This document shows positions 1,903 to 24,550 of a DNA stretch of 25,736 bases, one piece after another. Under the pieces are notes generated by a model, which worked only from the letters and a program-made list of their open reading frames with translations, was not told the origin of the DNA and did no database searches. The number at the start of each line of letters is the position of its first letter. The first letter of the stretch is position 1. Location of the stretch: the IMG/VR virus record IMGVR_UViG_3300017991_000372, positions 1-25,736 of that record; one strand, written 5' to 3'. The DNA is from a virus. The position numbers and the translations under genes were made by a program.

Positions 1903-2415
1903 ATGGCCTTCCGATTCAAGCGGGGCAAGACAACCCAGCTCCTCGACGAGCTGGACCGCTGCGACCTCCGGCTCAAGGCGATCGCCCTCTCGATGATGGG
2001 GTACGCCGAGCATCAGTTCGGCAAGGATCTGGTCATTACCGAGATCTACCGCACCGAGGCGGAGCAGCGCTCCTACTACCCGGACCGGCCGTACCGGCCC
2101 AGTGTCCACCAGTTCGGGCGGGGGCTGGACTTCGGGATCAGGGCGTACACTGCCGAGGAGCTGGACCCGTGGCCGTACGGGGTGGCCACACCCAACCCGG
2201 CGCTCAGCCATGATGAGGTGGCCCGGTTGGATGCGTTCTACTCCGCGCTGGTGAGCTACGACGACGAGCGCCCGGAATTCGACTCGATCATCCACCACAA
2301 CGTGGGGCTCGGGGACCACATGCACATCCAGGTCTCCTGGAGGACCACCACGCGACTGCGCAGTGACCGGAGCTTGCTGCAGCTCATCGGCCAGCGCCTG
2401 GGGGTGAGCCTGTGA
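1903..2415 (+). CDS. M15-type peptidase, probable endolysin
   Basis: 170 residues. The sequence ITEIYRT near residues 45-51, SVHQFGRGLDFGI (67-79) and GDHMHIQV (137-144) match the D-Ala-D-Ala carboxypeptidase/VanY-like M15 fold. H69 and D76 are the likely first two zinc ligands and H139/H141 supply the third ligand and active-site region. The family cleaves peptide bridges in peptidoglycan; phage members are endolysins. No signal peptide is visible, so release would need a holin, consistent with membrane-protein genes on both sides. The next gene starts within its last codons (GTG 2412). Confident as peptidase, fairly confident as endolysin. Confidence 0.8.
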   Translation: MAFRFKRGKTTQLLDELDRCDLRLKAIALSMMGYAEHQFGKDLVITEIYRTEAEQRSYYPDRPYRPSVHQFGRGLDFGIRAYTAEELDPWPYGVATPNPALSHDEVARLDAFYSALVSYDDERPEFDSIIHHNVGLGDHMHIQVSWRTTTRLRSDRSLLQLIGQRLGVSL

Positions 2416-2639
2416 GCCGGACGCTGAAAGAGAAGGCCCAGAGCACCAAGCTCCAGCAGAGCTGGTTCATCCTCCTGGTGGCCACAGTCCTGCTGCTTCT
2501 GGACAAGCTGCCGGCGGATGCATGGGTGATGGCGGTCGCTGCCTCCCAGGGGATCTATGCCGCGGCCAACGTGCGGCAGCACCGGATCTACGGGGCCGAC
2601 CAGGTGGGTCCCCGGGGGGAAGGGGTGGATGAGCCGTGA
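2412..2639 (+). CDS. Small membrane protein, holin candidate
   Basis: 75 residues with GTG start at 2412 overlapping the endolysin stop by 4 bases. A charged N-terminus (residues 1-13) precedes a hydrophobic segment at about 18-31 (WFILLVATVLLLLD) and a second, weaker hydrophobic stretch at about 35-52 (DAWVMAVAASQGIYAAANV); the tail is polar. Two potential TM segments, small size, charged ends and position next to an endolysin suit a class II-type holin. No family-specific motif proves it. Confidence 0.6.
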   Translation: MSRTLKEKAQSTKLQQSWFILLVATVLLLLDKLPADAWVMAVAASQGIYAAANVRQHRIYGADQVGPRGEGVDEP

Positions 2640-3307
2640 AGCGGGACCTGGTTCTTGCCATCCTGGTCCTCCTACTCGGCCTGGTCACCACCGAGTGGTG
2701 GGCGCAGCGGGCTAAGACCCAGACGCTTCTTGCCGTCCAGCAGTACGATGATGCTCTCCAGCAGGTGGCCTCCCGCCAGTGGCGCCGCCTCGCGGAGCGG
2801 GCCCGGGATGAGAGGGCGCTACGCCTCCGCCTCGAGGAGGAGGCCGCGGAGATGGCCGAGACCATCGAGGAGCTCAACGGCCAGCTCGCCAGCGTGACCA
2901 CCGTCACCATCACCGCCCCCGCCGAAACGCTCACCGTGGCCGTGCCCGAGACCGTGTACGCCGAGACCGGGATCCGGGAGTACCGGCTGGACTGGACCAG
3001 CGGAACCACCTGGGTGCAGGCCGACACCGTCTACTCCGCCCGGCATGAGCCCGCTCCCCAGGACCTGGTCCTCGCGATCTACCAGCGGCCGGACCGCTCC
3101 TGGTGGGTTGACGCGGAGCTCGAGCCCTACGGGAAGATCTCTGATATGCAGCTCATCGTCTATGACCCAGAGCCGACCTGGTGGGTAAGGAATCGGAGGT
3201 GGGGGTATGCAGCCGCGGGGGCTGGGGCAGCAGAGTGGATCCGGACCGGAGAGGTGGGGTACCTGATCCCGGCCGCAGCGATAGTGGTGGTGGAAGCAAT
3301 CTGGTAA
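2636..3307 (+). CDS. Membrane-anchored coiled-coil protein, spanin-like
   Basis: 223 residues, GTG start at 2636 overlapping the previous stop by 4 bases. An N-terminal TM (about residues 5-23) is followed by a long charged helix (30-88), then a beta-rich region with several Trp residues, and ends with a hydrophobic stretch (about 188-223). An N-terminal anchor plus periplasmic coiled coil after holin/endolysin resembles an inner-membrane spanin (Rz), but it is longer than usual and has an extra C-terminal hydrophobic end that could contact a second membrane. A separate lipoprotein partner was not found. Unknown function is an honest alternative. Confidence 0.55.
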   Translation: MKRDLVLAILVLLLGLVTTEWWAQRAKTQTLLAVQQYDDALQQVASRQWRRLAERARDERALRLRLEEEAAEMAETIEELNGQLASVTTVTITAPAETLTVAVPETVYAETGIREYRLDWTSGTTWVQADTVYSARHEPAPQDLVLAIYQRPDRSWWVDAELEPYGKISDMQLIVYDPEPTWWVRNRRWGYAAAGAGAAEWIRTGEVGYLIPAAAIVVVEAIW

Positions 3308-3351
3308 GACCAGCAGTTGGGAATTACGGTCACACAATCAGAGGTTGACGG

Positions 3352-3379
3352 TTGACTTCCTGAACGGGTCGGTCATAAT
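3352..3379 (+). promoter_or_regulatory. Sigma70-type promoter at the start of the accessory block
   Basis: TTGACT (3352-3357) and CATAAT (3374-3379) with a 16-base spacer; another TTGACG lies at 3345-3350. Predicted transcription start is about 3386, only a few bases before a strong hairpin with a T run. Position after the last lysis gene and at the drop in GC content suggests the accessory block has its own promoter, which would let it be expressed in a lysogen. Confidence 0.6.
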
Positions 3380-3390
3380 GGCAAGTGACA

Positions 3391-3425
3391 GGGGATTCTG
3401 GGCGTGTGCCCGGGATTCCCTTTTT
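3391..3425 (+). terminator. Intrinsic terminator / attenuator hairpin (leader hairpin 1)
   Basis: GGGGATTCTGGGC (3391-3403) and GCCCGGGATTCCC (3408-3420) form a 13-bp RNA stem with three G-U pairs and a GTGT loop, followed by TTTTT (3421-3425). It can end late transcripts coming from the lysis genes, but it also lies inside the leader of the promoter at 3352-3379, so that transcript would meet a terminator within about 40 bases. Confidence 0.75.
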
Positions 3426-3447
3426 CGTGTGTCCGGTATGCCCGGGA

Positions 3448-3470
3448 GGAATGTATCGGGAGATACATCC
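3448..3470 (+). promoter_or_regulatory. Palindrome enclosing the ribosome binding site
   Basis: ATGTATC (3451-3457), GGGA (3458-3461), GATACAT (3462-3468) is a perfect 7-bp inverted repeat, extendable by GG/CC at 3448 and 3469. The likely Shine-Dalgarno GGGAG for ATG 3471 lies in the loop and first stem base. It can be an RNA hairpin controlling translation or an 18-bp DNA operator for a dimeric repressor. Confidence 0.55.
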
Positions 3471-3695
3471 ATGCCTACTAGTGAATACAAATGTTATGCC
3501 CCTGTCTTTCCCGCACGCTCCGCATGCTGCTGCCGGTGGATGACCCTGATGTACCTGCTGGCAGTTTTCATTCTGATTGCAGGGACGCTGGGCTTGATTC
3601 AACTGTGCCCCAAGGGGCGATGCACCATTAAGCAGCTCCTCTATAAGATGGAGCATTGCATGGAGGGGAATAACGATCCGAACGTTCCACTGTGA
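3471..3695 (+). CDS. Small Cys-rich membrane peptide
   Basis: 74 residues from ATG 3471, chosen for GGGAG at 3458-3462; in-frame starts further upstream (3438, 3345) lack an RBS or precede the predicted transcription start. One hydrophobic segment at about residues 24-43 (MTLMYLLAVFILIAGTLGLI). Seven cysteines: C8, a CCC cluster at 19-21 directly before the TM, and C46, C51, C63 after it. The family is not recognised. It is the first gene of the lower-GC accessory block. The lack of homologous motifs keeps confidence moderate. Confidence 0.5.
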   Translation: MPTSEYKCYAPVFPARSACCCRWMTLMYLLAVFILIAGTLGLIQLCPKGRCTIKQLLYKMEHCMEGNNDPNVPL

Positions 3696-3702
3696 TTCTC
3701 AC

Positions 3703-3737
3703 GGGGGGGCTTACCTGGCAGTCCCCCCAATTTGTCC
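3703..3737 (+). promoter_or_regulatory. G/C-rich leader hairpin 2, before the nuclease gene
   Basis: A run of seven G (3703-3709) faces GTCCCCCC (3721-3728), giving a 6-bp G-C stem with a ~12-base interior, followed by AATTTGTCC (3729-3737). The same TTTGTCC follows hairpin 3 at 5024-5030. It lies 16 bases before the ATG of the exported nuclease, just upstream of its RBS (AGGTGG 3742-3747). Confidence 0.5.
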
Positions 3738-3752
3738 AGTGAGGTGGAATGA

Positions 3753-4559
3753 ATGAAAAGGCTCACGGTCCTGCTGTTTAGCACAGTCTTCGTACTTCCC
3801 CAATGCTCACTTGCCCAGGGCCCGCCTAACGAGCATCTCCGCTGGGGCAATCCTGGCGGGCCGGGCCAGTTGCTGGTGAAGAAATACTACGTGATCTCCC
3901 ACCACAGCGACTGGAAGATCCCGATCTGGACAGCAGTCCATATGACCGCCTATAGCGTTACCGGAACTGAGGAGCGTACGAATGACTTCCGGCCAGATAC
4001 CGAACTGCTAGAAGGACAACGGGCGGAGCTGGGGGACTACGCATCGGTCAGCGACCAACACATCCAGCGGGGCCACATGGTCGAGGCTGATGCGTTAGCC
4101 AGACTTGAGGAGTCAATGTCAGAGACCTTCCTGCTTTCCAACATGATACCCCAACATCGACACACCAATGTCGGTCGGTGGAGGGTCATCGAGGGGGAGG
4201 TACGAGAGCTGGCGGTAACTCGGGGTAGTATCTGGGTCTTCAGCGGCCCGGCTTTTCTCGCCTCGGAGGACAGCTCGCGAGTGGAACCTACCGTGCAAAT
4301 AGGTCCGAACCAGGTTGCGGTGCCCACCCACACCTTCAAGGTGGTCCTGGCCGAGCTCGGATCTGGGCAATACGAGATGTACGCGTTCCTCGTGGCCAAT
4401 GTCGCATCAGGGCATTCCGGCCACAACTCAGATGAATACCTGGTCAGCGTCGACGAAGTCGAGGCATGGACTGGTCTGGACTTTTTCTCGGCATTACCGG
4501 ACTCGATTGAATGGAACCTTGAGAGAACGAAGGTGGAGACATGGCCGATCCAGCCTTAG
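3753..4559 (+). CDS. Exported DNA/RNA non-specific endonuclease (NUC family)
   Basis: 268 residues. N-terminal signal peptide (MKRLTVLLFS..., hydrophobic core 4-16, cleavage probably after SLA at about residue 21). The NUC core is visible: QRGHMVEAD (105-113), SETFLLSNMIPQ (123-134), N139 in TNVGRW, VFSGPAF (162-168) and VPTHTFKVVL (190-199). By family knowledge H108 is the general base and N139 helps bind the metal; the usual D of DRGH is Q105 here. It should degrade nucleic acids in the periplasm or outside the cell. RBS AGGTGG at 3742-3747 supports ATG 3753. The next gene starts 19 bases before its stop. The nuclease call is strong; its role in the phage life cycle is inference. Confidence 0.85.
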   Translation: MKRLTVLLFSTVFVLPQCSLAQGPPNEHLRWGNPGGPGQLLVKKYYVISHHSDWKIPIWTAVHMTAYSVTGTEERTNDFRPDTELLEGQRAELGDYASVSDQHIQRGHMVEADALARLEESMSETFLLSNMIPQHRHTNVGRWRVIEGEVRELAVTRGSIWVFSGPAFLASEDSSRVEPTVQIGPNQVAVPTHTFKVVLAELGSGQYEMYAFLVANVASGHSGHNSDEYLVSVDEVEAWTGLDFFSALPDSIEWNLERTKVETWPIQP

Positions 4560-4939
4560 ACCGAAGCCCGCTATATGGACTCAAGAGAGTCCTGTACCGC
4601 TTCCATCAAGTATTTGCAGGGCTATTTGGAATTGCGGCAGGGTCAGCCATTGCCACATACACACCGCAATTGAAAGAGATTACTCAGGTTCCCATTGTCG
4701 TCGGTTCAGCCGGTGGGTTTCTGGGAAGTCTTACAATCGGGGCCGCATTGGGGAGAGCTCTATTCTACAAGTCACTGGAGGATGCCAATGATAGAGGGGG
4801 GCCGGTAGGAACCGTCATTCTGGCGCTCATTTCAATTATTCTCGTATTTAGCATTCTGTATATCATCACACTTCTTGTTGCCTATGGCGGAAACTTCGAG
4901 GCAGTACTCAATCGCACACTAGAACTTCTGGGCATGTAA
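4541..4939 (+). CDS. Multi-pass membrane protein of the accessory block
   Basis: 132 residues; ATG 4541 has AGGTGGAG at 4530-4537 and overlaps the nuclease gene by 19 bases, suggesting coupled translation. Hydrophobic segments at about residues 25-42, 50-72 and 88-115 predict three TM helices, with glycine-rich stretches (GGFLGSLTIGAALG). I do not recognise the family. The tight overlap suggests that it works with, or protects against, the exported nuclease, for example as an immunity or anchoring partner. That is inference. Confidence 0.7.
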   Translation: MADPALDRSPLYGLKRVLYRFHQVFAGLFGIAAGSAIATYTPQLKEITQVPIVVGSAGGFLGSLTIGAALGRALFYKSLEDANDRGGPVGTVILALISIILVFSILYIITLLVAYGGNFEAVLNRTLELLGM

Positions 4940-4940
4940 A

Positions 4941-4969
4941 TTGTCTCCATCTTGATTCATTGCTATAAG
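4941..4969 (+). promoter_or_regulatory. Extended -10 promoter for the protease gene
   Basis: TTGTCT (4941-4946), 17-base spacer, TATAAG (4964-4969) preceded by TGC, an extended -10 element. It starts 2 bases after the upstream stop codon, so the protease gene probably has its own transcript. Predicted start near 4976. Confidence 0.55.
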
Positions 4970-4991
4970 GTCGATAGGCTTGACGGTGACA

Positions 4992-5022
4992 GGGGACTTC
5001 CGGCAGATGGTCGGGGGTCCCC
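4992..5022 (+). promoter_or_regulatory. G/C-rich leader hairpin 3, before the protease gene
   Basis: GGGGACTTCCGG (4992-5003) pairs with TCGGGGGTCCCC (5011-5022): 12 bp including G-U pairs, 7-base loop, followed by GTTTGTCC (5023-5030). Upstream, GTGACAGGGGA (4986-4996) is identical to 3385-3395 in front of hairpin 1, and TTGACGG (4980-4986) matches 3345-3351. The weak T tract argues for attenuation or RNA regulation more than complete termination. Confidence 0.55.
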
Positions 5023-5057
5023 GTTTGTCCTTATGAAACGGAAGGAAGAGGTAGATA

Positions 5058-6035
5058 ATGTCAGAGGACAATGTACTTCCGAGCCAGTACAGGGAGACGA
5101 TTTCCGCCTTGATCGACATTGCCCCGGAAGAAGGCGCCTGTCTTTCTATGGTCCAGGAGGTGGCAGATTCGGGACCATGGGTCTGCATGGGCTTCATCTC
5201 TCCCTACCCGCCGGTACGAGTATCCCCAGTTGAAGCGCGCTATGCCACCATAGGTCTTGCCGAAGAATTTGCGATGGATGAGGCCATAAGCGAGGTCCTG
5301 AAGCAGACGGATTGTCGACAGCTTGTCCTCGTGATCAACAGTCCAGGCGGCGTAGCCACGTCCTCATACAAGATTGCAAAGGCACTCCGAGAGACATTTG
5401 ATCCAATTAAGGTCTACGTCCCTCACGTAGCTGCTAGCGGTGGAACATTGATTGCAATTGCCGGCAACCAGATCTCAATGGGCAGGATGAGCCACCTGAC
5501 TGCCATAGACCCCCAAGTAGTCTATAAGGGTGAGCGTGTCTCCGCCTTTGCGATTGTACGGGCGCTCTCCCGCGTATCCGACTATTTCGCGACGAGAAGA
5601 CCAGAAGAAGCTCCATATCCATGGAAGGCCCTTGCTGACAAGATCGATCCGATATTACTAGAGGACCACATGGGCAGCGTTCGTGAGGCCCAAAGGTACA
5701 TTCATTCCATTCTTCGGATGGCCGACTACTCCGAAGAAGAGGCAGTTGAAATCGTAAGTTCACTAGTCAATACTGTTGAGTCGCATGGTTCGGCAATTGG
5801 GCCAAATCATGCGAAACAGATTGGCCTGCGCATCGTCTCCAATAAGGAGGACAATCGGATTCTGCACATCGCCAAGGAGTGGCTTGGCGAGTACATGATG
5901 CAACCTTCTGAGAAGCACATTATCAGGTATGTTCTACCCAGGGAGGCCGAGCAAAGTGCCAAGAAGTCGAAGAGCACAAAGAGCAAGAGTGTCAAAGGAA
6001 AGCGCTCCCAGCCCAAGAAGTCCGAAGACGACTGA
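5058..6035 (+). CDS. SDH-type (ClpP/crotonase-fold) serine protease
   Basis: 325 residues, with a purine-rich GGAAGAGGT RBS upstream of ATG 5058. Residues 88-151 match the serine dehydrogenase proteinase/SppA-like family: LVLVINSPGG (89-98), VAASGGTLIAIAG (124-136, nucleophile candidate S127), and the region H146 to DPQ (151-153). The later KQIGL (253-257) also fits the family's C-terminal part. No signal peptide or TM is seen, so it should be cytoplasmic and, like family members, ATP-independent. The last ~30 residues are a Lys/Ser-rich tail (AKKSKSTKSKSVKGK), possibly for nucleic acid or membrane contact. It has its own promoter and leader hairpin. Fold call strong; substrate unknown. Confidence 0.8.
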   Translation: MSEDNVLPSQYRETISALIDIAPEEGACLSMVQEVADSGPWVCMGFISPYPPVRVSPVEARYATIGLAEEFAMDEAISEVLKQTDCRQLVLVINSPGGVATSSYKIAKALRETFDPIKVYVPHVAASGGTLIAIAGNQISMGRMSHLTAIDPQVVYKGERVSAFAIVRALSRVSDYFATRRPEEAPYPWKALADKIDPILLEDHMGSVREAQRYIHSILRMADYSEEEAVEIVSSLVNTVESHGSAIGPNHAKQIGLRIVSNKEDNRILHIAKEWLGEYMMQPSEKHIIRYVLPREAEQSAKKSKSTKSKSVKGKRSQPKKSEDD

Positions 6036-6150
6036 GTCCCCACATTTTGACCGTGAAGTGTTGAGGACGATTCAGGAGTGGGATTCGCTGGACGGACACA
6101 AGTACGATAGGTACTTCTTAGACCGGACGGGAGCTTCTGTACCCAAGTAG
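5989..6150 (+). CDS. Possible small ORF overlapping the protease 3' end
   Basis: A frame different from the protease gene stays open to TAG at 6148-6150. Its distal part reads LRTIQEWDSLDGHKYDRYFLDRTGAS, which looks protein-like, whereas the overlapped part mirrors the Lys-rich tail and is probably not functional. No convincing RBS supports GTG 5989; GTG 6059 would give only ~30 residues. It could be a genuine mini-protein, a remnant of a longer protease C-terminus lost by frameshift, or chance. Confidence 0.25.
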   Translation: MSKESAPSPRSPKTTESPHFDREVLRTIQEWDSLDGHKYDRYFLDRTGASVPK

Positions 6151-6179
6151 CCCCAATCACCATCAGCATCCCAAGCACC

Positions 6180-6213
6180 GGGAGGCTTTGGATTGCAGCC
6201 AAGGCCTCCCTTA
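6180..6213 (+). terminator. Terminator-like hairpin after the accessory block
   Basis: GGGAGGCTTTGG (6180-6191) pairs with CCAAGGCCTCCC (6199-6210), 12 bp with one G-U, 7-base loop. Only TT follows, so the T tract is poor; the long stable stem could still end or stabilise transcripts of the protease gene and separates the block from the attachment region. Confidence 0.55.
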
Positions 6214-6541
6214 CCATCGACTTCAACACTATTTCAACATCCAATCCCCAACCGACCGAACTGACCGAACACCACGAAACCGGGGTAACCGAAGGCCCCA
6301 CAACTCAAGACCTAACCCCCTCGATTCTGCCAGAATTCTGCCAACCCCCGCACCGGTAGGCTCGTTTCTTTCGCTTCCTTCGGTACGGGGTGTTGCCCGC
6401 CAGGCCGCGCCGTTGTGCGGTTTTCGGGCTCTCGGGGGCCTGAGCGAATGTTAGGCGAAGGTGGGGCGGGTCAGAGTGTGAAGCTCTGGCCCCGCTTCTG
6501 CTGCCGCCCAAGCATCCCCTGGATAAGCCCTTACCGCACAG
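6212..6541. other. Non-coding stretch, probable attP region
   Basis: About 330 bases without a credible gene. It contains the first pair of 11-bp repeats (6324-6345) and an imperfect hairpin GCGGGTCAGAG (6466-6476) with CTCTG/CCCGC (6484-6495). No full tRNA-like 3' end was recognised, so the 15-50 bp att core cannot be placed. Phage attachment sites normally lie next to the integrase 3' end, which is at 6542 here. Confidence 0.5.
6324..6345. repeat. Tandem 11-bp repeat pair, copy 1 (candidate integrase arm site)
   Basis: ATTCTGCCAGA (6324-6334) followed directly by ATTCTGCCAAC (6335-6345). The 11-bp period is about one helical turn. The unit recurs at 6589-6610 with a single base difference across 22 bases. 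Paired direct repeats flanking an attachment core are typical of arm-type sites bound by the N-terminal domain of tyrosine integrases. Confidence 0.6.
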
Positions 6542-7594
6542 TCACTTACCGTTTCCCGGGCCCTTCCCGCCGTTCCCACCATCCGGGGATTCTGCCAGGA
6601 TTCTGCCAACATCGAGCCTCTCCATGCCTGCCTGGAGGTCCCCTGGGACCAAGTGCGCGTACTGTTCGGCGGTGATCTCCACAGTCGCGTGACCGAGGAT
6701 CTTCGAAAGCTGGTAGATATCCCCGCCCGCCCGCAGATAGTTGGTGGCAAAGGTGTGCCGAAGGTCGTGGGGGCTGACCTTAGAGATACCCACCCGGTCC
6801 CGTGCCCGCTTGAACGCTTTCCAAACCGAACCCCGAGTGAACGGAAAGAGCCTCTCGCCCTGGCGGTCCAACTCGCCGAGGATGCCCTCCATCGCGTCGC
6901 TGACGGGCAGGTGGCGCTGCTTGCGACCCTTACCTCTCACGCGAACCGTGCGGTCGATGTCCGCCCATCTCAGCGCCAGACACTCCGATACACGCATCCC
7001 GGTCGCCCACATCCACCGGACCAGCAGGCGGTACTTCGGGGTGATCTCCGCAAGCAGGGTGCGGACCTGCTCGTCGGTGAGCACCACCTCCCGGGCGGTT
7101 CGGCCGGTCCGGAAGCGGGGCACGTCAGAGCAGGGGTTGGACTGGATCCAGTTGCGGTCGGTTGCCCACTGGAGGAAGGCGTGAACGAAGCCGCGCTCCC
7201 TGCTGGCCGTGATGGGCTTGATCTCTTCGCGCTCCATGCGGCCCTTCCAGTGCGCGAGCAGCTCCTCGGTCCGCGGGGGCCAGGAGCAGTCATCCAGCAC
7301 CCGGGGTATCACATCGCGATAGCGCTCGACGGTGAGCTCGCTGTGGTCGTCGCTCACCTCCAGGGCATCGAAGTAATCCGACTCCACGGCCATCCGGGGC
7401 CTCACGCTCCCGCTCCGGCCCAGCAGGGCGGCGAGGTTCCCCTCCTCCACCTGTCCCCGGATCGAGTTCGCCACCCGCTTATTCTTCGTCTTCGTCGAGC
7501 GCCTCAGCCGCTTGCCGGTGGGCGATAGGTCGGGCGGGATGTCGAGGTACCAGTAGTCGGAATCGGTGGGTTTGTAGAGCCGGACGTACTTCAC
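6542..7594 (-). CDS. int: Tyrosine recombinase, phage integrase
   Basis: 350 residues. Catalytic residues of the family are all visible: R201 in TGMRVSECLALRW, Lys in RGKGRKQRHLP (220-229), H276 and R279 in SPHDLRHTFAT, H302 in LGHATVEIT and Tyr nucleophile Y312 in EQYAHL. A SAM-like core-binding region spans roughly 70-160 and the first ~60 residues look like an arm-binding domain. It catalyses attP x attB integration and, with excisionase, excision. Its ATG overlaps the stop of the upstream Cys4 gene by 4 bases, making it the last gene of the leftward lysogeny operon. The C-terminus beyond Y312 is Gly-rich and contains repeat copy 2. Confidence 0.95.
   Translation of the reverse strand: MKYVRLYKPTDSDYWYLDIPPDLSPTGKRLRRSTKTKNKRVANSIRGQVEEGNLAALLGRSGSVRPRMAVESDYFDALEVSDDHSELTVERYRDVIPRVLDDCSWPPRTEELLAHWKGRMEREEIKPITASRERGFVHAFLQWATDRNWIQSNPCSDVPRFRTGRTAREVVLTDEQVRTLLAEITPKYRLLVRWMWATGMRVSECLALRWADIDRTVRVRGKGRKQRHLPVSDAMEGILGELDRQGERLFPFTRGSVWKAFKRARDRVGISKVSPHDLRHTFATNYLRAGGDIYQLSKILGHATVEITAEQYAHLVPGDLQAGMERLDVGRILAESPDGGNGGKGPGNGK
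6589..6610. repeat. Tandem 11-bp repeat pair, copy 2, inside the integrase 3' end
   Basis: ATTCTGCCAGG (6589-6599) plus ATTCTGCCAAC (6600-6610). It encodes (on the minus strand) the integrase residues around GRILAES, near residue 333. Direct orientation relative to copy 1, 265 bases apart. Being inside coding sequence, it may serve both as codons and as a binding site. Confidence 0.6.
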
Positions 7595-7804: not shown

Positions 7805-8230
7805 CTACTTCGGCCGTGTCAGCGATACCTTGGTCCAGCCTGACCACCCCACATCCTGTTCGGTAACCCGGAATCTGATCCAGCCGCCTCGACGCTCAAG
7901 GACATATAGGGTCTCGGACTGCGTAAGCTCGCCCCCGGTGTCGCGGCCGGAATCTTCGGACGGGCCAGTCCATACGGGCGTATCGGCCGAGACCGGAGCG
8001 CGCATTTCAATGACCCCAGGGGGTAGGTTTGGCGAAGCATCCTCCGCCTGGTCTACCCCTGACTGGTATCCCAGCACAACCAGAAACCCGACGAGCGCCA
8101 GGAACCCGAGCTTCATGTAGGAGCCACGCCTCCACCTACGGCGCGTCGCCTCCGGTATGTCCCTGGTGCAGTACGGGCAGAACGTGGCCCGTACATCGAC
8201 CTTCTTCCGGCAGTTGGGGCATTTCGGCAT
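7805..8230 (-). CDS. Zinc-ribbon, TM, SH3-like protein of the lysogeny operon
   Basis: 141 residues from ATG 8230, chosen because GGGGGGA precedes it; an upstream ATG (8248) lacks an RBS. Order: zinc ribbon with C4/C7 and C18/C21, basic patch (RRRWRRGS), TM at about 39-55 (MKLGFLALVGFLVVLGY), acidic linker, and a bacterial SH3-like domain at about 75-138 ending in GWSGWTKVSL. This predicts a cytoplasmic ribbon and an SH3 domain outside the membrane, which could contact cell wall. It follows the repressor by 32 bases and is likely expressed in lysogens. Superinfection exclusion is a reasonable guess, not shown. Confidence 0.75.
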   Translation of the reverse strand: MPKCPNCRKKVDVRATFCPYCTRDIPEATRRRWRRGSYMKLGFLALVGFLVVLGYQSGVDQAEDASPNLPPGVIEMRAPVSADTPVWTGPSEDSGRDTGGELTQSETLYVLERRGGWIRFRVTEQDVGWSGWTKVSLTRPK

Positions 8231-8262
8231 GTGATCCCCCCCATGCATTCTCGCGATAAACG

Positions 8263-8595
8263 CTAATCAGTCTTGGTCCTCTCCCTCTTCGCCGAGGACT
8301 TTCTTGATGGGTCGGGCTGTCGCGGGGCGACGCGGCCTGCCGCTGAGCTTTCGTACTCCGACCCTGGGCCGAGGAAGAAGATGACCTCGTCCTCTATCTC
8401 CAGGGCCTTCAGTAGCAACCTCAGCGAATCGGTGTTGATGCCGCGGTCTCCTCGCTCGAACTCATAGATCGTATCCCAGTGCAGCCCCTTTCCCTCAGGA
8501 TCCAGCTCACGGGTACGCCTACTCAGCTCCTTCGCGGAACCGAATCCTCGATAGGACCTCCACGCCCTGAGCAGTCTTCCCCAGTCCCTTGACAT
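8263..8595 (-). CDS. XRE-family phage repressor
   Basis: 110 residues from ATG 8595 (GGAAG about 10 bases upstream); a longer frame to 8718 would start upstream of the predicted leftward promoter. Residues 4-70 contain an HTH_3-type fold: LLRAWRSYRGFGSAKELSRRT, then W.TIYEFERGDRGIN and the hydrophobic helix LRLLLKAL. There is no LexA-like autoprotease domain; the C-terminus is a basic/Ser-rich tail. It is the first gene of the leftward operon, divergent from the excisionase-like gene, the normal place for a lysogeny repressor. Inactivation on induction must use another mechanism, possibly an antirepressor. Confidence 0.8.
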   Translation of the reverse strand: MSRDWGRLLRAWRSYRGFGSAKELSRRTRELDPEGKGLHWDTIYEFERGDRGINTDSLRLLLKALEIEDEVIFFLGPGSEYESSAAGRVAPRQPDPSRKSSAKRERTKTD

Positions 8596-9875: not shown

Positions 9876-11075
9876 ATGACCAACGAGACAACCGCGCTTG
9901 AGCGAGCAGTCGCCGGCGCACCGACACAGCAGGAAGTGGAGGAGCTCCGCCAGCGCGGTGCCCTCCTCGTCCAGAAGTCCAAGGAGCTGCAGTCCCTTGC
10001 AAAGGAGATCGAGGGATGCCAGTGGGGCAGCGGCTCCTCCCTGGTGAAGGGTAGCAACTTCAGCGAGGCTACGCGAATGGCCTTCGCGAAGTTCTGTTAC
10101 CTCACCAAGGCCAACCCCATGATCCACATCGATGTGCTCGGTGGGGGTCCCTACCTGAATGCGGAGTACTGGTCGGACAAGATGAACTCCGACCCCACCT
10201 TCATCCGCTACGAGCAGTTCCCGATTGACAGGGGAACCGAGGCCAAGTGGCGGGAACGTGCCAAGCGGCTCCGTGCCCAGGCTTCAGAGCTCAAGGACCT
10301 GGAACCCCAGCGGGCCGCGGATTTCATCGGAAAGGCCCAGTATGCCGAAGACAAGGCCGACTGGGTCGAAGAGCAGCGCATCCAGTGGGAGGTCCCGGAC
10401 GCGGCACCCTCGGCCTACCTGACGGACATCTACAAGTTCGGCAACCACGCACCCCTCGAGAAGATCCGCTCCGGCGAGATCCAGGACTTCGACAGGTACG
10501 TGGTGAAGGTGAGCGAGGCCAACTGGGCCGGGAACAAGAGCAGTGATCCGGTCGGGAAGGCCGAGGCCGAGAAGACCGCTCGGACCCGCTCACTGAGACG
10601 AGCCGGCGTGCGGGCATTCTCGGCATGGCTCCAGCAGTACGAGCAGGAGATCTCCAAGGTGGAGAACGCCATGGAGGCCGAGTTCGAGATCATCATGGAC
10701 GAGCGTGCCGAAGAGCGTGCTTCCCTCCCCAGCTCCGACGAACCACAGGCCGTCAGCACCTCCCAGGGGGAGCCGAGCGTGGCCCAGGAGGACGAGGCTC
10801 AGGACCTGCCGTCCGCTACCGACCCCGCGGTGGAAGAGGACATACCTGCTCCTGAGATCAGCGAAGAGGAACAGAGCCTGGATGAGCCCGAGCCCTTCGA
10901 CCGGGGGGACTGGCACCGGAAGTACTTTGCCTTATTGAAGGAGGCGGGGATCGACGAGCGGAAGCCGTGGCAGGTAGACAACTTCCTGCCCGAGTCGGTC
11001 ACCGAGTGGGAGCCTCACCACTATAAGACCGCCTGCCGGCTCCTCGAGGAAATCGTTGAGGGGGCGAGAGCATGA
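9876..11075 (+). CDS. Putative recombination / ssDNA-annealing-type protein
   Basis: 399 residues; start ATG 9876 has GAGGAG 8-9 bases upstream, whereas GTG-type starts further up lack one. The N-terminal region is a coiled helix, then a conserved-looking core (FCYLTKANPMIHIDVLGGGPYLNAEYW), and EKTARTRSLRRAGVRAFSAWL near 225-250 recalls the KA.TRAL.RAL motif of RecT/Erf/Rad52-like annealing proteins. An acidic linker (about 280-345) separates a C-terminal helical domain. Position immediately before SbcD/SbcC genes strengthens a recombination role. I could not assign a specific family; a structural or ssDNA-binding role is an alternative. Confidence 0.5.
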   Translation: MTNETTALERAVAGAPTQQEVEELRQRGALLVQKSKELQSLAKEIEGCQWGSGSSLVKGSNFSEATRMAFAKFCYLTKANPMIHIDVLGGGPYLNAEYWSDKMNSDPTFIRYEQFPIDRGTEAKWRERAKRLRAQASELKDLEPQRAADFIGKAQYAEDKADWVEEQRIQWEVPDAAPSAYLTDIYKFGNHAPLEKIRSGEIQDFDRYVVKVSEANWAGNKSSDPVGKAEAEKTARTRSLRRAGVRAFSAWLQQYEQEISKVENAMEAEFEIIMDERAEERASLPSSDEPQAVSTSQGEPSVAQEDEAQDLPSATDPAVEEDIPAPEISEEEQSLDEPEPFDRGDWHRKYFALLKEAGIDERKPWQVDNFLPESVTEWEPHHYKTACRLLEEIVEGARA

Positions 11076-12241
11076 AGTCCCTCCACGCCTCCGACACGCA
11101 CCTGAACTTCCGGGCGTACTCCGCTCTCATCGAGGGTCGGAACGCACGGGAGGTCGACGTCGAGCGGGCCTGGCAGCGGCTCGTGGACATCTCCGTAGAG
11201 GAGAGGCCCGACCTGGTCGCACTGGCCGGCGACATCTTCCACCACCCCAGGCCCGGGTTCCGCGCGGTGAAGGCCTACCGCGACGGGATTCGGCGCATCA
11301 TCGAGGATACCCGAGCCCGGGTGATCATCCTCCAGGGCAACCACGATGCGGTGAAGACCGCGGACGCCCTGAGCCCGATCTGGATCCCAGACGACTACGA
11401 TCGGGTCTACATCATCACAGAGCCCCAGCGGGTCCGCATGGAGACCGCGGAGGGAGAGAAGATCTCCGTGGCCTGCTTCCCCTTCGTCGGGCTGGGGGAG
11501 CCGCAGACGTACCGGCTCCGCCCCGAGGAGGACGCGGACATCAACATCCTCCTCATGCACGCCGCGGTGAAGTCCTCAGAGGCCGAAGGAGCCCTCCCAT
11601 TCTTCTACCAGGGCCCGCATGCCCTGGACGTGGGGCGGGAGGCTGAGCGGTGGGACATCATCGCCCTGGGGGACTACCACGAGTTCACCCCGCTGCATCC
11701 CTTCCGGCCAGTCTTCTACTCCGGATCCATCGAGCGGACCTCGAGCAACATCTGGGTCGAGCACGAGCCGAAGGGGGTCGTGGTGTGCGAGACCGGATCG
11801 GAGCCGGACATGATGACGGTCTACCGATTCCGGGAGATCGAGACCCGCCCGATGCAGGACTACGACCTGGGTGACTTCGACCTGCCCCCCGGGGCCTCCG
11901 CCGAGGAAGTGAACGGAGCGCTCCGGGAGGCCCTCACCTACGACACCACCAAGGATGCCATCGTCCGCCTGAAGGTGGACAGCTTCCCCCGCGGCCAGCG
12001 TGACGAGATCGACTGGACGCTGGTGCGTGAGCTGAAAGCCCACTGCCTCCACTTCCAGCTGAATCTCCGCTTCGCCGAGGGCGCTGCCGTCGAGCTCGGA
12101 GACCGCCGGGAGCGAGGGGCGAAGACCCTGGTCCAGGAGGCCCAGGAGTTCTTCGCCGAGGATGAGAACGAGGTCCGGGAGTGCGCCCTTCGGTACCTGA
12201 CCGCGGGTGATCCCGAGGCCGAGGAGGAGGTGTCCGCATGA
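11072..12241 (+). CDS. sbcD: SbcD/Mre11-type nuclease subunit
   Basis: 389 residues. Metallophosphoesterase motifs: D8 and H10 (SDTH), D54 (GDIFHH), N90-H91-D92 (GNHD), H163 (LLMHAA), and GDYHEF (200-205). These coordinate two metal ions. With SbcC it forms a complex with ATP-dependent exonuclease and endonuclease activity on DNA ends and hairpins. It starts in the ATGA overlap with the previous gene and overlaps sbcC likewise. C-terminal ~120 residues probably form the capping and SbcC-binding parts. In phages such pairs act in recombination-dependent replication or end processing (T4 gp46/47 analogue). Confidence 0.92.
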   Translation: MKSLHASDTHLNFRAYSALIEGRNAREVDVERAWQRLVDISVEERPDLVALAGDIFHHPRPGFRAVKAYRDGIRRIIEDTRARVIILQGNHDAVKTADALSPIWIPDDYDRVYIITEPQRVRMETAEGEKISVACFPFVGLGEPQTYRLRPEEDADINILLMHAAVKSSEAEGALPFFYQGPHALDVGREAERWDIIALGDYHEFTPLHPFRPVFYSGSIERTSSNIWVEHEPKGVVVCETGSEPDMMTVYRFREIETRPMQDYDLGDFDLPPGASAEEVNGALREALTYDTTKDAIVRLKVDSFPRGQRDEIDWTLVRELKAHCLHFQLNLRFAEGAAVELGDRRERGAKTLVQEAQEFFAEDENEVRECALRYLTAGDPEAEEEVSA

Positions 12242-14688
12242 AGCTGCTCAGCCTGAAGCTGAAGAATTTCCGCCAGCACGCCGACACCGAGCTCCGCTTC
12301 CCCGAGCAGGGGCTCATCGGAGTCATCGGTGCCAACGAGAGCGGGAAGTCCACCCTGATCGAGGCCATCACCTGGGCGCTGTTCGGTGCCCGGGCCACCA
12401 GAGGGAAGGTCGACTCCATCCGCTGGAAGCGGGCCGTGGCTCGCCAGACCGCCCAGGTGGAGCTGGTCCTCGAGGTCGGGGGCAACACCTACCGGATCCA
12501 CCGGACTGAGAATGAGGCGAAGGTCTACGAGGGGGACAGCAACGTCCCGATCGTCACCTCGATCTCCCACGCCGACTCGAAGATCCCCGAGCTCATCGGG
12601 ATGGACCTGGACGAGTTCAGCGCCACCTACCTGTGCCGGCAGAAGGACCTCAATGCCCTGCAGAGCATGGGGGGTGTGGAGCGCCGGCAGTTCGTGCTTC
12701 GGGTGATGGGCGTGGGCACGGTGGACGATGCCCTGCAGTACTGCCGCCGGCAGAAGAACGACCTGGCGAAGGAGAAGGAGGGGCTGGAGGCCGGGCTGGG
12801 CAGTCGGGACTCCTACGAGCAGGCCGTGGCCGAAGCCCGGGAGCAGGCCAAGGGGTGCGAGGGACGCCACGCCGACGCGGTGGACGATCTCGCACAGTCC
12901 GAGGAGCTGCACACCTCCGCCCAGGAAGCTCTGGCCGAGGCCGATCAGAAGAAGGCCCGCCACCAGGAACTCCAGCGCAAGCTCGAGGAGGCCCGCAAGC
13001 AGCGGACCGAGGCGGATGAGGAGATCACCCGCCTGGGCGGAAAGATCCACGAGGCCAGGCAGGCACAGGAGCGCATCGCCCCTGCCGAGCGGGAGCTATC
13101 CGAACTCCCCCGGCTCCGCGAGAAGCGTGATGAGCTGAAGGAGGCCCGGGCCCGGAAGGCGGAACGGAAGCGCCTCCGGGAGTCCATCACACGTCAGGAG
13201 GGGGAGCTCCGGAAGGCCGAGGAGCAGCTGGGCAACATGACCCCCGGCGAAGAGCCGGCAGATCCCACCGCCCTGAAGGACAAGCTCGGCGCGAAGCGCG
13301 AGCAGTACGAGTCGATCCGCAAGGAGCGGGAACAGCGCCGGGGAGAGGCCGTGGCCGCGGCCAACCGTGCCGCCCAAGACGCCCGCCAGGCAAAGGAGAA
13401 GCTCGAGAAGCTCGAAGACCTGGGCGAGGAAGGGACCTGCCCCACCTGCCAGCAGGCCCTGGGCGATGCCTTCGGCGAGGTGATTGGCCACTACCGCCGG
13501 GAGAGGGAGCAGGCGGAGAAAGACGCCGCTGAGTTCCAGCGTACGGTCCAGACCCTCTCCGAGCCCCCTGAGCAGGAGAAGGCCCTCCAGCGTGAGGTCC
13601 AGATCCTCGCCCAGGAGGTCGAGGACACCCGGATGGCCCGGGCCCGGTGGGACCAAGCTCGTCAGCGCCACCAAGAGAAGCAGGGGGAGATCGAGGGGCG
13701 CCGGAAGCAGCTGGCCCACGACCGGGCCACGCTCGAGCAGATCCCCGACGCCGACGTGGATGAGGACCACTTCACCCAGGTCGAGTCCCGGATCCGTGAG
13801 CTCGAGGAGCTGCAGAAGCGGACCGAGGGCGACCGGGCGAAGGCCCAGGGCCACGAATCCCTCCAGGAGGACCGTGCCCGCTGGACCGAGAAGCTGAAGG
13901 CCTCAGAGACCGCAGAGGAGGAGGCCAAGCAGGGCCTGCGGGACCTCGCCTTCTCCACTGAGGCCTACGCTGAGACGGCCCAGGCGGCCGAGACGGCCCG
14001 GAAGGTGTACGAGGAGGCCAAGGTCACGCTGGCCCGGACCGAGGAGGCGCTCAAGGCGGCTCAGGCCCGCACCGAACAGGCCGAGAAGGCCCTGGAGGGC
14101 TGGGAGTCCCGGTCCGGCCGGCTGAAGGAGGTTGCCGGGGAGCTGCGAGTCCACGAGCGGACCGCGGAGCGCCTGAACGACTTCCGCACGGCCATGGCCT
14201 CGACCATCCGGCCCGAGCTCGAGGAGCTCACCAGCGCCTTCATCCACACCCTCACCGACGGGCGCCACGAGGGTGTGAGCCTGACCGAGGACTTCGACGT
14301 GATCCTCCAGGAGGGAGGCCTCGACCAGGAGGTCGTCTCCGGGGGGGCCGAGGACATCACCTCCATCGCCCTGCGCCTGGCGATCAGCCACATGATCGCG
14401 GCCCGGGCCGGGCATCCCCTCTCCCTGCTCATCATGGACGAGCCGTACGGATCTCTCGACGAGGTCCGGCGCCGGAACGTCACCGCGCTCCTGGAGCGGC
14501 TCAAGGGCACGTTCGCCCAGGTCCTCCTCATCACCCACGTGGACGAGGTGAAGGACACGGTGGACTACCCGGTCCATGTCGAGTTCGACGAGGCGAAGGG
14601 GAAGAGCCAGGTCACCGGCGCGGAGCCGGTGGAAGAGCAGACAGAGAGTGAGCCGGTCGCCCTGGTGGAGTGGGTGGAGGTCCCATGA
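12238..14688 (+). CDS. sbcC: SbcC/Rad50-type ATPase subunit
   Basis: 816 residues. Walker A GANESGKST (31-39), two long coiled-coil arms (about 180-390 and 415-650), zinc hook CPTC (C401, C404) at the apex, ABC signature region SGGAED (701-706) and Walker B LLIMDEP (I732-M733-D734-E735). The domain order is that of Rad50/SbcC, shorter than most cellular SbcC (about 1000). It powers and gates the SbcD nuclease. The signature reads SGGAEDITSIALRLA rather than the classic LSGGE, a small variation. Coupled by ATGA overlaps to neighbours. Confidence 0.95.
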   Translation: MKLLSLKLKNFRQHADTELRFPEQGLIGVIGANESGKSTLIEAITWALFGARATRGKVDSIRWKRAVARQTAQVELVLEVGGNTYRIHRTENEAKVYEGDSNVPIVTSISHADSKIPELIGMDLDEFSATYLCRQKDLNALQSMGGVERRQFVLRVMGVGTVDDALQYCRRQKNDLAKEKEGLEAGLGSRDSYEQAVAEAREQAKGCEGRHADAVDDLAQSEELHTSAQEALAEADQKKARHQELQRKLEEARKQRTEADEEITRLGGKIHEARQAQERIAPAERELSELPRLREKRDELKEARARKAERKRLRESITRQEGELRKAEEQLGNMTPGEEPADPTALKDKLGAKREQYESIRKEREQRRGEAVAAANRAAQDARQAKEKLEKLEDLGEEGTCPTCQQALGDAFGEVIGHYRREREQAEKDAAEFQRTVQTLSEPPEQEKALQREVQILAQEVEDTRMARARWDQARQRHQEKQGEIEGRRKQLAHDRATLEQIPDADVDEDHFTQVESRIRELEELQKRTEGDRAKAQGHESLQEDRARWTEKLKASETAEEEAKQGLRDLAFSTEAYAETAQAAETARKVYEEAKVTLARTEEALKAAQARTEQAEKALEGWESRSGRLKEVAGELRVHERTAERLNDFRTAMASTIRPELEELTSAFIHTLTDGRHEGVSLTEDFDVILQEGGLDQEVVSGGAEDITSIALRLAISHMIAARAGHPLSLLIMDEPYGSLDEVRRRNVTALLERLKGTFAQVLLITHVDEVKDTVDYPVHVEFDEAKGKSQVTGAEPVEEQTESEPVALVEWVEVP

Positions 14689-23877: not shown

Positions 23878-24065
23878 CCTACGCCGAGCACGACACCCTC
23901 CTGGGACCAGAGATCGAGCGGTGCCCGGACTGTATGGGCCCGATGGTTCGTGCCCCATGGGGGAAGCACTGCCCTGCCTGTCGCCCTCCGGAGTCGATGG
24001 ACTCGGTCTACATGGAGGACCAGCTCGAAGAGGCCATGCGCGATCAGGGGTGGGAGGCAGGGTGA
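23874..24065 (+). CDS. Small zinc-ribbon protein
   Basis: 63 residues from ATG 23874. C-P-D-C and C-P-A-C pairs (RCPDCMGPM...KHCPACRPP) form a classic zinc ribbon, followed by an acidic helix. Coupled by ATGA to the AAA ATPase gene. Possibly a regulator or adaptor of it. Confidence 0.6.
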   Translation: MTYAEHDTLLGPEIERCPDCMGPMVRAPWGKHCPACRPPESMDSVYMEDQLEEAMRDQGWEAG

Positions 24066-24550
24066 TGGGGCAGGTCTATGGAATCTATCGGGGCGACAAT
24101 GGGGCGTGCTTCTACATCGGGGCAACACGGGGTTCTGCAGAGGAGCGATTTAGGCAGCATCTGGCTGCAAGCAGATGTGGGTACCACCACAACATCCATT
24201 TTCAGAACATCGTTCGCAAACTCGGAGAGAGCCGGGTTTGGATGCGGGTTCTTTCCGATACAGGAGAATCTGATACGTTCGACACTGAGCGCCTGCTTAT
24301 ACAGGAGGCCGAGGCATCAGGGCAACCACTGGTCAATCGATACCATAAAGACGGCCGAAGGCCTCCTATGCGCCCCAGGAGACGCCGAACGGAGGGTCTT
24401 CGTGAGCGGGTAACAAGCGCGTTGGGCGGCCTCCATCAAGGCAGACTTCTTCCCGGTGTGCCCCAAGACACAAGGCATCTGTTTGCTGAAGCATTAGCCG
24501 GGATGCTCAAGACCATTGAAGCAATCGAGTCACAAACGGAGAGCTCATGA
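24065..24550 (+). CDS. GIY-YIG nuclease, possible homing endonuclease
   Basis: 161 residues from ATG 24065 (preceded by GTG 24062). GIY-YIG core: GQVYGIY (2-8), FYIGAT (16-21), R28 in EERFRQHL, E75 in TERLLIQE and N91 in LVNRYH. By family knowledge Y5/Y17, R28 and E75 form the active site. The C-terminus is basic (RPPMRPRRRRTEG) then helical, possibly DNA-binding. Lower GC than its neighbours suggests recent arrival. It could be a free-standing homing nuclease or an accessory DNA-cutting protein. Confidence 0.8.
   Translation: MGQVYGIYRGDNGACFYIGATRGSAEERFRQHLAASRCGYHHNIHFQNIVRKLGESRVWMRVLSDTGESDTFDTERLLIQEAEASGQPLVNRYHKDGRRPPMRPRRRRTEGLRERVTSALGGLHQGRLLPGVPQDTRHLFAEALAGMLKTIEAIESQTESS

Follow-up and report, generated by a model that had tools for sequence, protein, structure and literature searches.

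A low-G+C block with an exported-type nuclease and an SDH-type protease as candidate swappable cargo beside the attachment site of a temperate phage probably infecting Gemmatimonadota

The window analysed here is a 25.7-kb IMG/VR virus record (IMGVR_UViG_3300017991_000372; 25,736 nucleotides at its full length), and our subject is its block at positions 3308-6213, where four plus-strand frames encode a Cys-rich peptide of uncertain status, a predicted exported nuclease (NUC), a membrane protein (TM) and an SDH-type serine protease (SDH). An earlier note on this DNA had described a visibly lower-GC block between the lysis cassette and attP/int, and both parts of that description are borne out by our analysis. 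The G+C content of the block is 53.8%, against 64.6% in the remaining window, and same-size windows outside it have a mean of 64.7% (sd 2.3%) and a minimum of 60.6%, making 3308-6213 essentially the lowest-G+C stretch of such length. The lysis genes stop at 3307, the left border of the block, and the candidate attP arms lie at 6323-6345 and 6588-6610. The G+C content at third codon positions (GC3) is 0.59-0.69 in the NUC and SDH genes and 0.47 in the TM gene, against 0.74-0.93 in most phage core genes. Low GC3 is also seen elsewhere in the window, in a GIY-YIG-like gene at 24062-24550 (0.56), which is probably another recent acquisition, and in the repressor gene at 8263 (0.68). The features of the locus are as follows.

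1903-2415, plus strand: endolysin-like gene, left border of the slot (endolysin family phrog_2649 matched weakly, E 0.0045; pattern H..GR..D...H.H seen in the sequence)
2636-3307, plus strand: Rz-like spanin gene, last of the lysis genes (weak phrog_1403 match, E 0.0067)
3352-3379, plus strand: promoter-like site TTGACT-16-CATAAT, the best of a set whose count is at chance level (10/12)
3390-3421, plus strand: terminator-like leader hairpin with a T tail before the Cys-rich frame, beginning with TGACAGGGGA (-25 kcal/mol, z -3.0)
3471-3695, plus strand: open reading frame (extending up to 3345) for a 74-aa Cys-rich peptide with a single hydrophobic, putative transmembrane stretch
3703-3728, plus strand: weaker hairpin GGGGGGG/CCCCCCC upstream of NUC (z -2.2)
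3753-4559, plus strand: NUC, putative exported DNA/RNA non-specific endonuclease (PF01223, E 2e-42; signal peptide at about residues 1-22)
4541-4939, plus strand: TM, 132-aa membrane protein with three long predicted helices, overlapping NUC by 19 nt
4992-5022, plus strand: terminator-like hairpin in the gap between TM and SDH and in the SDH leader, beginning with TGACAGGGGA (-28 kcal/mol, z -3.7)
5058-6035, plus strand: SDH, SDH-type serine protease, predicted to be soluble and putatively of ClpP fold, with a Lys-rich C-terminus (PF01972, 6e-17; phrog_11747, 2e-32; NF047768, 2e-21)
6180-6210, no strand assigned: terminator-like hairpin closing the block (-23.5 kcal/mol, z -3.7)
6323-6345, plus strand: left attP arm repeat (23-bp direct repeat, 96% identical)
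6588-6610, plus strand: right attP arm repeat, inside the 3' end of int, counterpart of 6323-6345
6542-7594, minus strand: tyrosine integrase gene, int (PF00589, 5e-31; phrog_1, 1e-62)

NUC matches PF01223 with 145.8 bits, against a gathering score of 23, and also matches the solved structures (PDB) of EndoG, EXOG, Anabaena NucA and Serratia nuclease. R106-G107-H108, N139 and E147 are invariant across six aligned relatives, and in the DRGH motif the Asp is replaced by Gln while the catalytic His is kept. In addition, a signal peptide can be read that ends near residue 22, and these features together suggest a catalytically complete, non-specific nuclease that would be exported. The 19-nt overlap makes translational coupling of NUC and TM likely. 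A model of TM built by AlphaFold without an alignment has three helices at low confidence (predicted local distance difference test score, pLDDT, 66), and no relative of TM was found in viral contigs, phages or the 395 Gemmatimonadota genomes that we searched. Likewise, no close relatives were recovered among viral contigs by SDH, NUC, TM or the integrase. The phage matches of NUC include the CJIE4 nucleases of Campylobacter, at ~24-26% identity, as well as nucleases of large phages. Exported NUC genes are also found in Gemmatimonadota islands together with a tyrosine integrase and a Tle1-like (DUF2235) hydrolase (L055:2956-7486 and L057:1276-4156).

SDH reaches 62 bits with PF01972, whose gathering score is 31.3, and 77 bits with the equivalog NF047768; since the curated cut-off of the latter is 250 bits, SDH is not filed under it. 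In an alignment of 13 relatives, S127, D151 and H243 are among the only invariant positions, and we take them to be the residue types of the SDH catalytic triad. Sequence prediction gives neither a signal peptide nor a transmembrane stretch, so that the protein is predicted to be cytoplasmic, and a single-sequence AlphaFold model has a pLDDT of 39, too low to inform on the ClpP-like fold. In the family tree the protein of the window sits on a very long branch, with a best identity of about 22%.

Many of the phage proteins that SDH matches, weakly, are annotated as head or capsid maturation proteases, and a few others are products of accessory genes. It could accordingly be asked whether SDH is a displaced head-maturation protease of this phage. 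In this regard, the PF01972 (6e-17) and phrog_11747 (2e-32) matches outscore every head-protease match, the gene adjoins attP, and relatives of the phage have no SDH match. Because an S49 protease-scaffold gene is already present next to a portal-like gene in the relative G003, we regard a head-protease role for SDH as very improbable indeed.

The attP site is newly defined here by the 23-bp repeats on either side of the end of int, for which integrase arm sites are the best interpretation. Read in this way, they would place the block between the spanin gene and attP and, since phage genes lie on both sides of it, inside the phage and not in flanking host DNA. The related phage L002 has 20-bp repeats with a spacing of 276 bp, compared with 265 bp in the window, which flank a tRNA 3' end sequence; this last assignment is a by-eye reading, and ARAGORN reported no whole tRNA gene there. 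Neither an Rfam family nor a tRNA was detected when the window was scanned for them. A search of the 395 genomes for attB with the attP core gave only short, chance-like matches, of which the best covers 57 bp at 81% with no tRNA.

Our comparison with the nearest phages shows that the place occupied by the block is variable. In L002 the slot is empty, and attP and int come straight after the spanin gene. L003 has, behind its lysis genes, two overlapping genes on the opposite strand (L003:1445-3107), one for a HipA_2-like kinase and one for a partner of 288 aa. Both phages keep the lysis genes and have no NUC or SDH match. As L002 is empty and L003 carries the HipA_2 pair at the same place, we describe the site as a variable cargo slot, in line with the earlier proposal of an accessory block in the conversion slot: the cargo is integration-proximal, and L002 and L003 differ from the window exactly there. 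The lysis genes themselves are weakly identified, the endolysin and spanin family matches having E values of about 0.005, and the spanin shows 21% identity over ~200 aa to the gene at the spanin position of L002.

The kinship of these phages is traced by an early protein of the window (9879-11075), common to L002 and L003 at 44% identity, and by SbcD at 56-59%. Contig L005 of a Gemmatimonadota metagenome-assembled genome encodes a protein related to the early one (46% identity), and this single related prophage-like contig points to Gemmatimonadota as the likely host group. In the window, the early protein (without a PHROG match), an SbcD-like and an SbcC-like gene form an overlapping series at 9879-14688; L002 keeps the order early protein-SbcD-SbcC, and L003 has the first two genes. 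The gap between int and the repressor gene is perhaps a second cargo slot. It holds genes for a zinc-ribbon, an outer-membrane-like and an Ig-like lipoprotein on the minus strand in L002 (L002:4560-6852), and only a zinc-ribbon protein gene (7805-8248) in the window.

The earlier note had further suggested that the block may be one system. In such a system nuclease, membrane partner and protease would cooperate, with the protease, for example, activating or releasing the nuclease. The genes are adjacent and on the same strand, and the TGACAGGGGA motif occurs in both leader hairpins. A weak echo of such an arrangement is provided by exported NUC relatives whose genes directly precede one for a trypsin-like protease, as in L057 and L036 (1273-2855), in four genomes of two lineages; nuclease-protease pairs may therefore exist, but the protease fold there is trypsin-like and other than that of SDH. 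The co-occurrence search came out against the suggestion, with the outcome that the note itself had named as its refutation. Of the 395 genomes, 125 yield an SDH-like match, in many cases probably to core proteases of NfeD or SppA type, 69 yield a NUC match and none a TM match, while NUC and SDH share a contig in G317 only, where they are >500 kb apart. Moreover, TM is without relatives, a terminator-like hairpin stands ahead of SDH, and the two proteins would be expected in different compartments, given that NUC is of exported type and SDH has no signal peptide. Because NUC and SDH do not co-occur, would differ in location and are separated by this hairpin, we take the block to consist of at least two units, NUC-TM being one and SDH another, and consider a three-part system quite improbable.

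Concerning the leaders, the hairpin at 4992-5022 is among the lowest 0.1% of 45-nt windows. It has an 11-mer and the TGACAGGGGA start in common with the one at 3390-3421 (simulated p about 3e-4). These two structures may terminate transcription that arrives from upstream, or may exert leader control on the next gene. A third copy of TGACAGGGGA, at 10226, is intragenic and has no comparable hairpin. As to promoter-like sites, the block has 3 against 1.9 +/- 1.5 expected from shuffles, which is not above chance. Of the promoters and hairpins with which the block had been credited, the hairpins are strong (z to -3.7) and the promoter matches are at chance level. The former gene list holds for the intact NUC, TM and SDH genes and is uncertain for the Cys-rich peptide. 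The latter has a plausible ribosome site at 3471-3695 and no family match in profile searches or relative in phages. Because it is without relatives and its codon signature is weak, it is unproven as a real gene.

Directly behind SDH, an open tail, FDREVLRTIQEWDSLDGHKYDRYFLDRTGASVPK, at 6046-6150 resembles the remnant of a gene end; a family search with it returned no match. A stray piece of this kind, the position next to attP and the divergent low-GC genes would be compatible with neutral pick-up, in which host or mobile DNA was caught beside attP by imprecise excision and has no function for the phage. The three genes are intact and have ribosome sites, NUC and TM are probably coupled, the active sites are conserved and the leaders are structured, all of which speaks against this origin; we judge it to be rather unlikely.

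The contexts in which SDH relatives are found are relevant to the possible role of the protease. In phages, an SDH gene directly follows xis-int in the 44-kb Pseudomonas aeruginosa phage-like circle CP137442 (L058:5737-8669), another lies between the late regulator and lysozyme genes of a Shewanella Mu-like phage, and a third adjoins hicAB in a Porphyromonas phage. CP137442 is filed as a plasmid and resembles an excised phage, with excisionase, integrase and methylase genes. These three accessory phage proteins cluster in the tree with moderate support, and the SDH of the window falls outside them. In Gemmatimonadota, 6 of 12 inspected SDH loci have defence-type neighbours, a count made without a null, so that the association is a lead and not a statistic. 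Such neighbours are a C5 methylase and an HNH gene (L049), an N6/N4 methylase (L053) and IrrE (L067). Also among the six, SDH stands directly behind a ThiF E1 gene in L069 (1039-3742), and in L070 (1170-5307) it stands directly behind a JAB-ThiF gene, named from its sequence, and is followed by a DNA methylase gene. In genome G061, which supplies the sixth case, SDH is placed within a type I restriction operon in the order hsdS-SDH-hsdR (L051:1368-7779), with an hsdR overlap of ~20 nt; this hsdR has an additional Schlafen AlbA_2 domain. Finally, the Methylocystis plasmid AP027146 (L062:3365-6642) has the order multiubiquitin-E2-ThiF-DUF6527-SDH. A PADLOC scan gave no meaningful match, and the literature collection that we searched held no paper linking SDH proteases directly to defence or to Bub (bacterial ubiquitination-like) operons.

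Since SDH genes occur inside hsdS-SDH-hsdR and ubiquitin-like operons as well as in phage accessory slots, stand-alone SDH-type ClpP-fold proteases might form an unrecognised class of phage-conflict proteins, the phage copies of which would cut host-defence proteins or conjugates, or would defend the lysogen, with the SDH of the window as a far member. We put this forward as a speculative idea with a small chance of being right.

Taken together, these findings lead us to favour, at about even confidence, the reading that the block is a swappable cargo (moron) island of independent parts, serving prophage protection in a temperate phage probably of Gemmatimonadota. Insertion between the lysis genes and attP would bring the block to the end of the prophage that adjoins the host chromosome. 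In a first unit, NUC would degrade DNA that is in the periplasm or has not entered the lysogen, acting on natural transformation and perhaps on the DNA of superinfecting phages, and the three-helix membrane protein would anchor or guard the nuclease. The most economical reading of NUC is thus a barrier to DNA beyond the lysogen cytoplasm, the role of the Campylobacter prophage DNases. The second unit would be a separately controlled cytoplasmic protease that works by itself to protect the prophage; this is suggested by its relatives, which occupy accessory positions in phages or adjoin restriction or ubiquitin-like operons.

Several points weigh against this account. The transfer of a role from SDH relatives is weak because of the very long branch and the low identity of the window protein. 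The 11-mer common to both leader hairpins could mean joint control, and with it some unity of the block. With promoter matches at chance, expression in the lysogen is unproven, and NUC, which comes straight after the lysis genes and shares the late strand with them, could have a late lytic function. NUC-TM would then not be a conversion unit at all; the nuclease would be made together with the lysis proteins and released at lysis to degrade the surrounding DNA or scavenge nucleotides, a use with which the occurrence of such nucleases in large phages also agrees. We regard this as unlikely: a terminator-like hairpin (3390-3421) separates NUC from the spanin gene, the composition of the block is foreign, and L002 and L003 keep their lysis genes without NUC.

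The proposed cargo island has parallels among known systems. DNases and toxins of streptococcal prophages occupy the slot between the lysis genes and the attachment site, as the block does; unlike in that case, the host is expected to be diderm and no toxin is seen. A functional comparison can be made with the Campylobacter jejuni genes dns of CJIE1 and CJE1441 of CJIE4, which, like the block, bring exported DNase genes on temperate elements, and whose CJIE4 nucleases are, like NUC, DNA/RNA non-specific endonucleases. The DNases of these prophages are expressed and render the host non-transformable (PMC3995785). NUC differs from them in its position between lysis genes and attP, its overlapping membrane protein and the nearby protease, and is known from sequence only. 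SDH itself corresponds to PF01972 and the NCBIfam family Clp_like_SDH in profile and Ser-Asp-His triad, and departs from that family in its identity of ~22% at best, its Lys-rich tail and its being phage-borne. Bub operons, which are putative immune pathways whose phage protection is not demonstrated (PMC13373217), also have an SDH-family gene, there with multiubiquitin/E2/ThiF or JAB-ThiF genes, whereas ubiquitin-like, E1 and E2 genes are absent from the block.

Prophage cargo is well known as a kind; what is worth following here is which genes the block holds, and that SDH-type proteases turn up repeatedly in accessory positions and near defence genes. Little was found in the literature on lysogenic conversion in Gemmatimonadota phages, and the present analysis maps a cargo slot and its attP arms in a group of phages with probable Gemmatimonadota hosts. 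Because members of the SDH family lie within operons of restriction and ubiquitin-like type, and unrelated phages have them at accessory positions, its involvement in such conflicts can be tested, and SDH-type proteases are candidates for a role in the conflict between phage and host.

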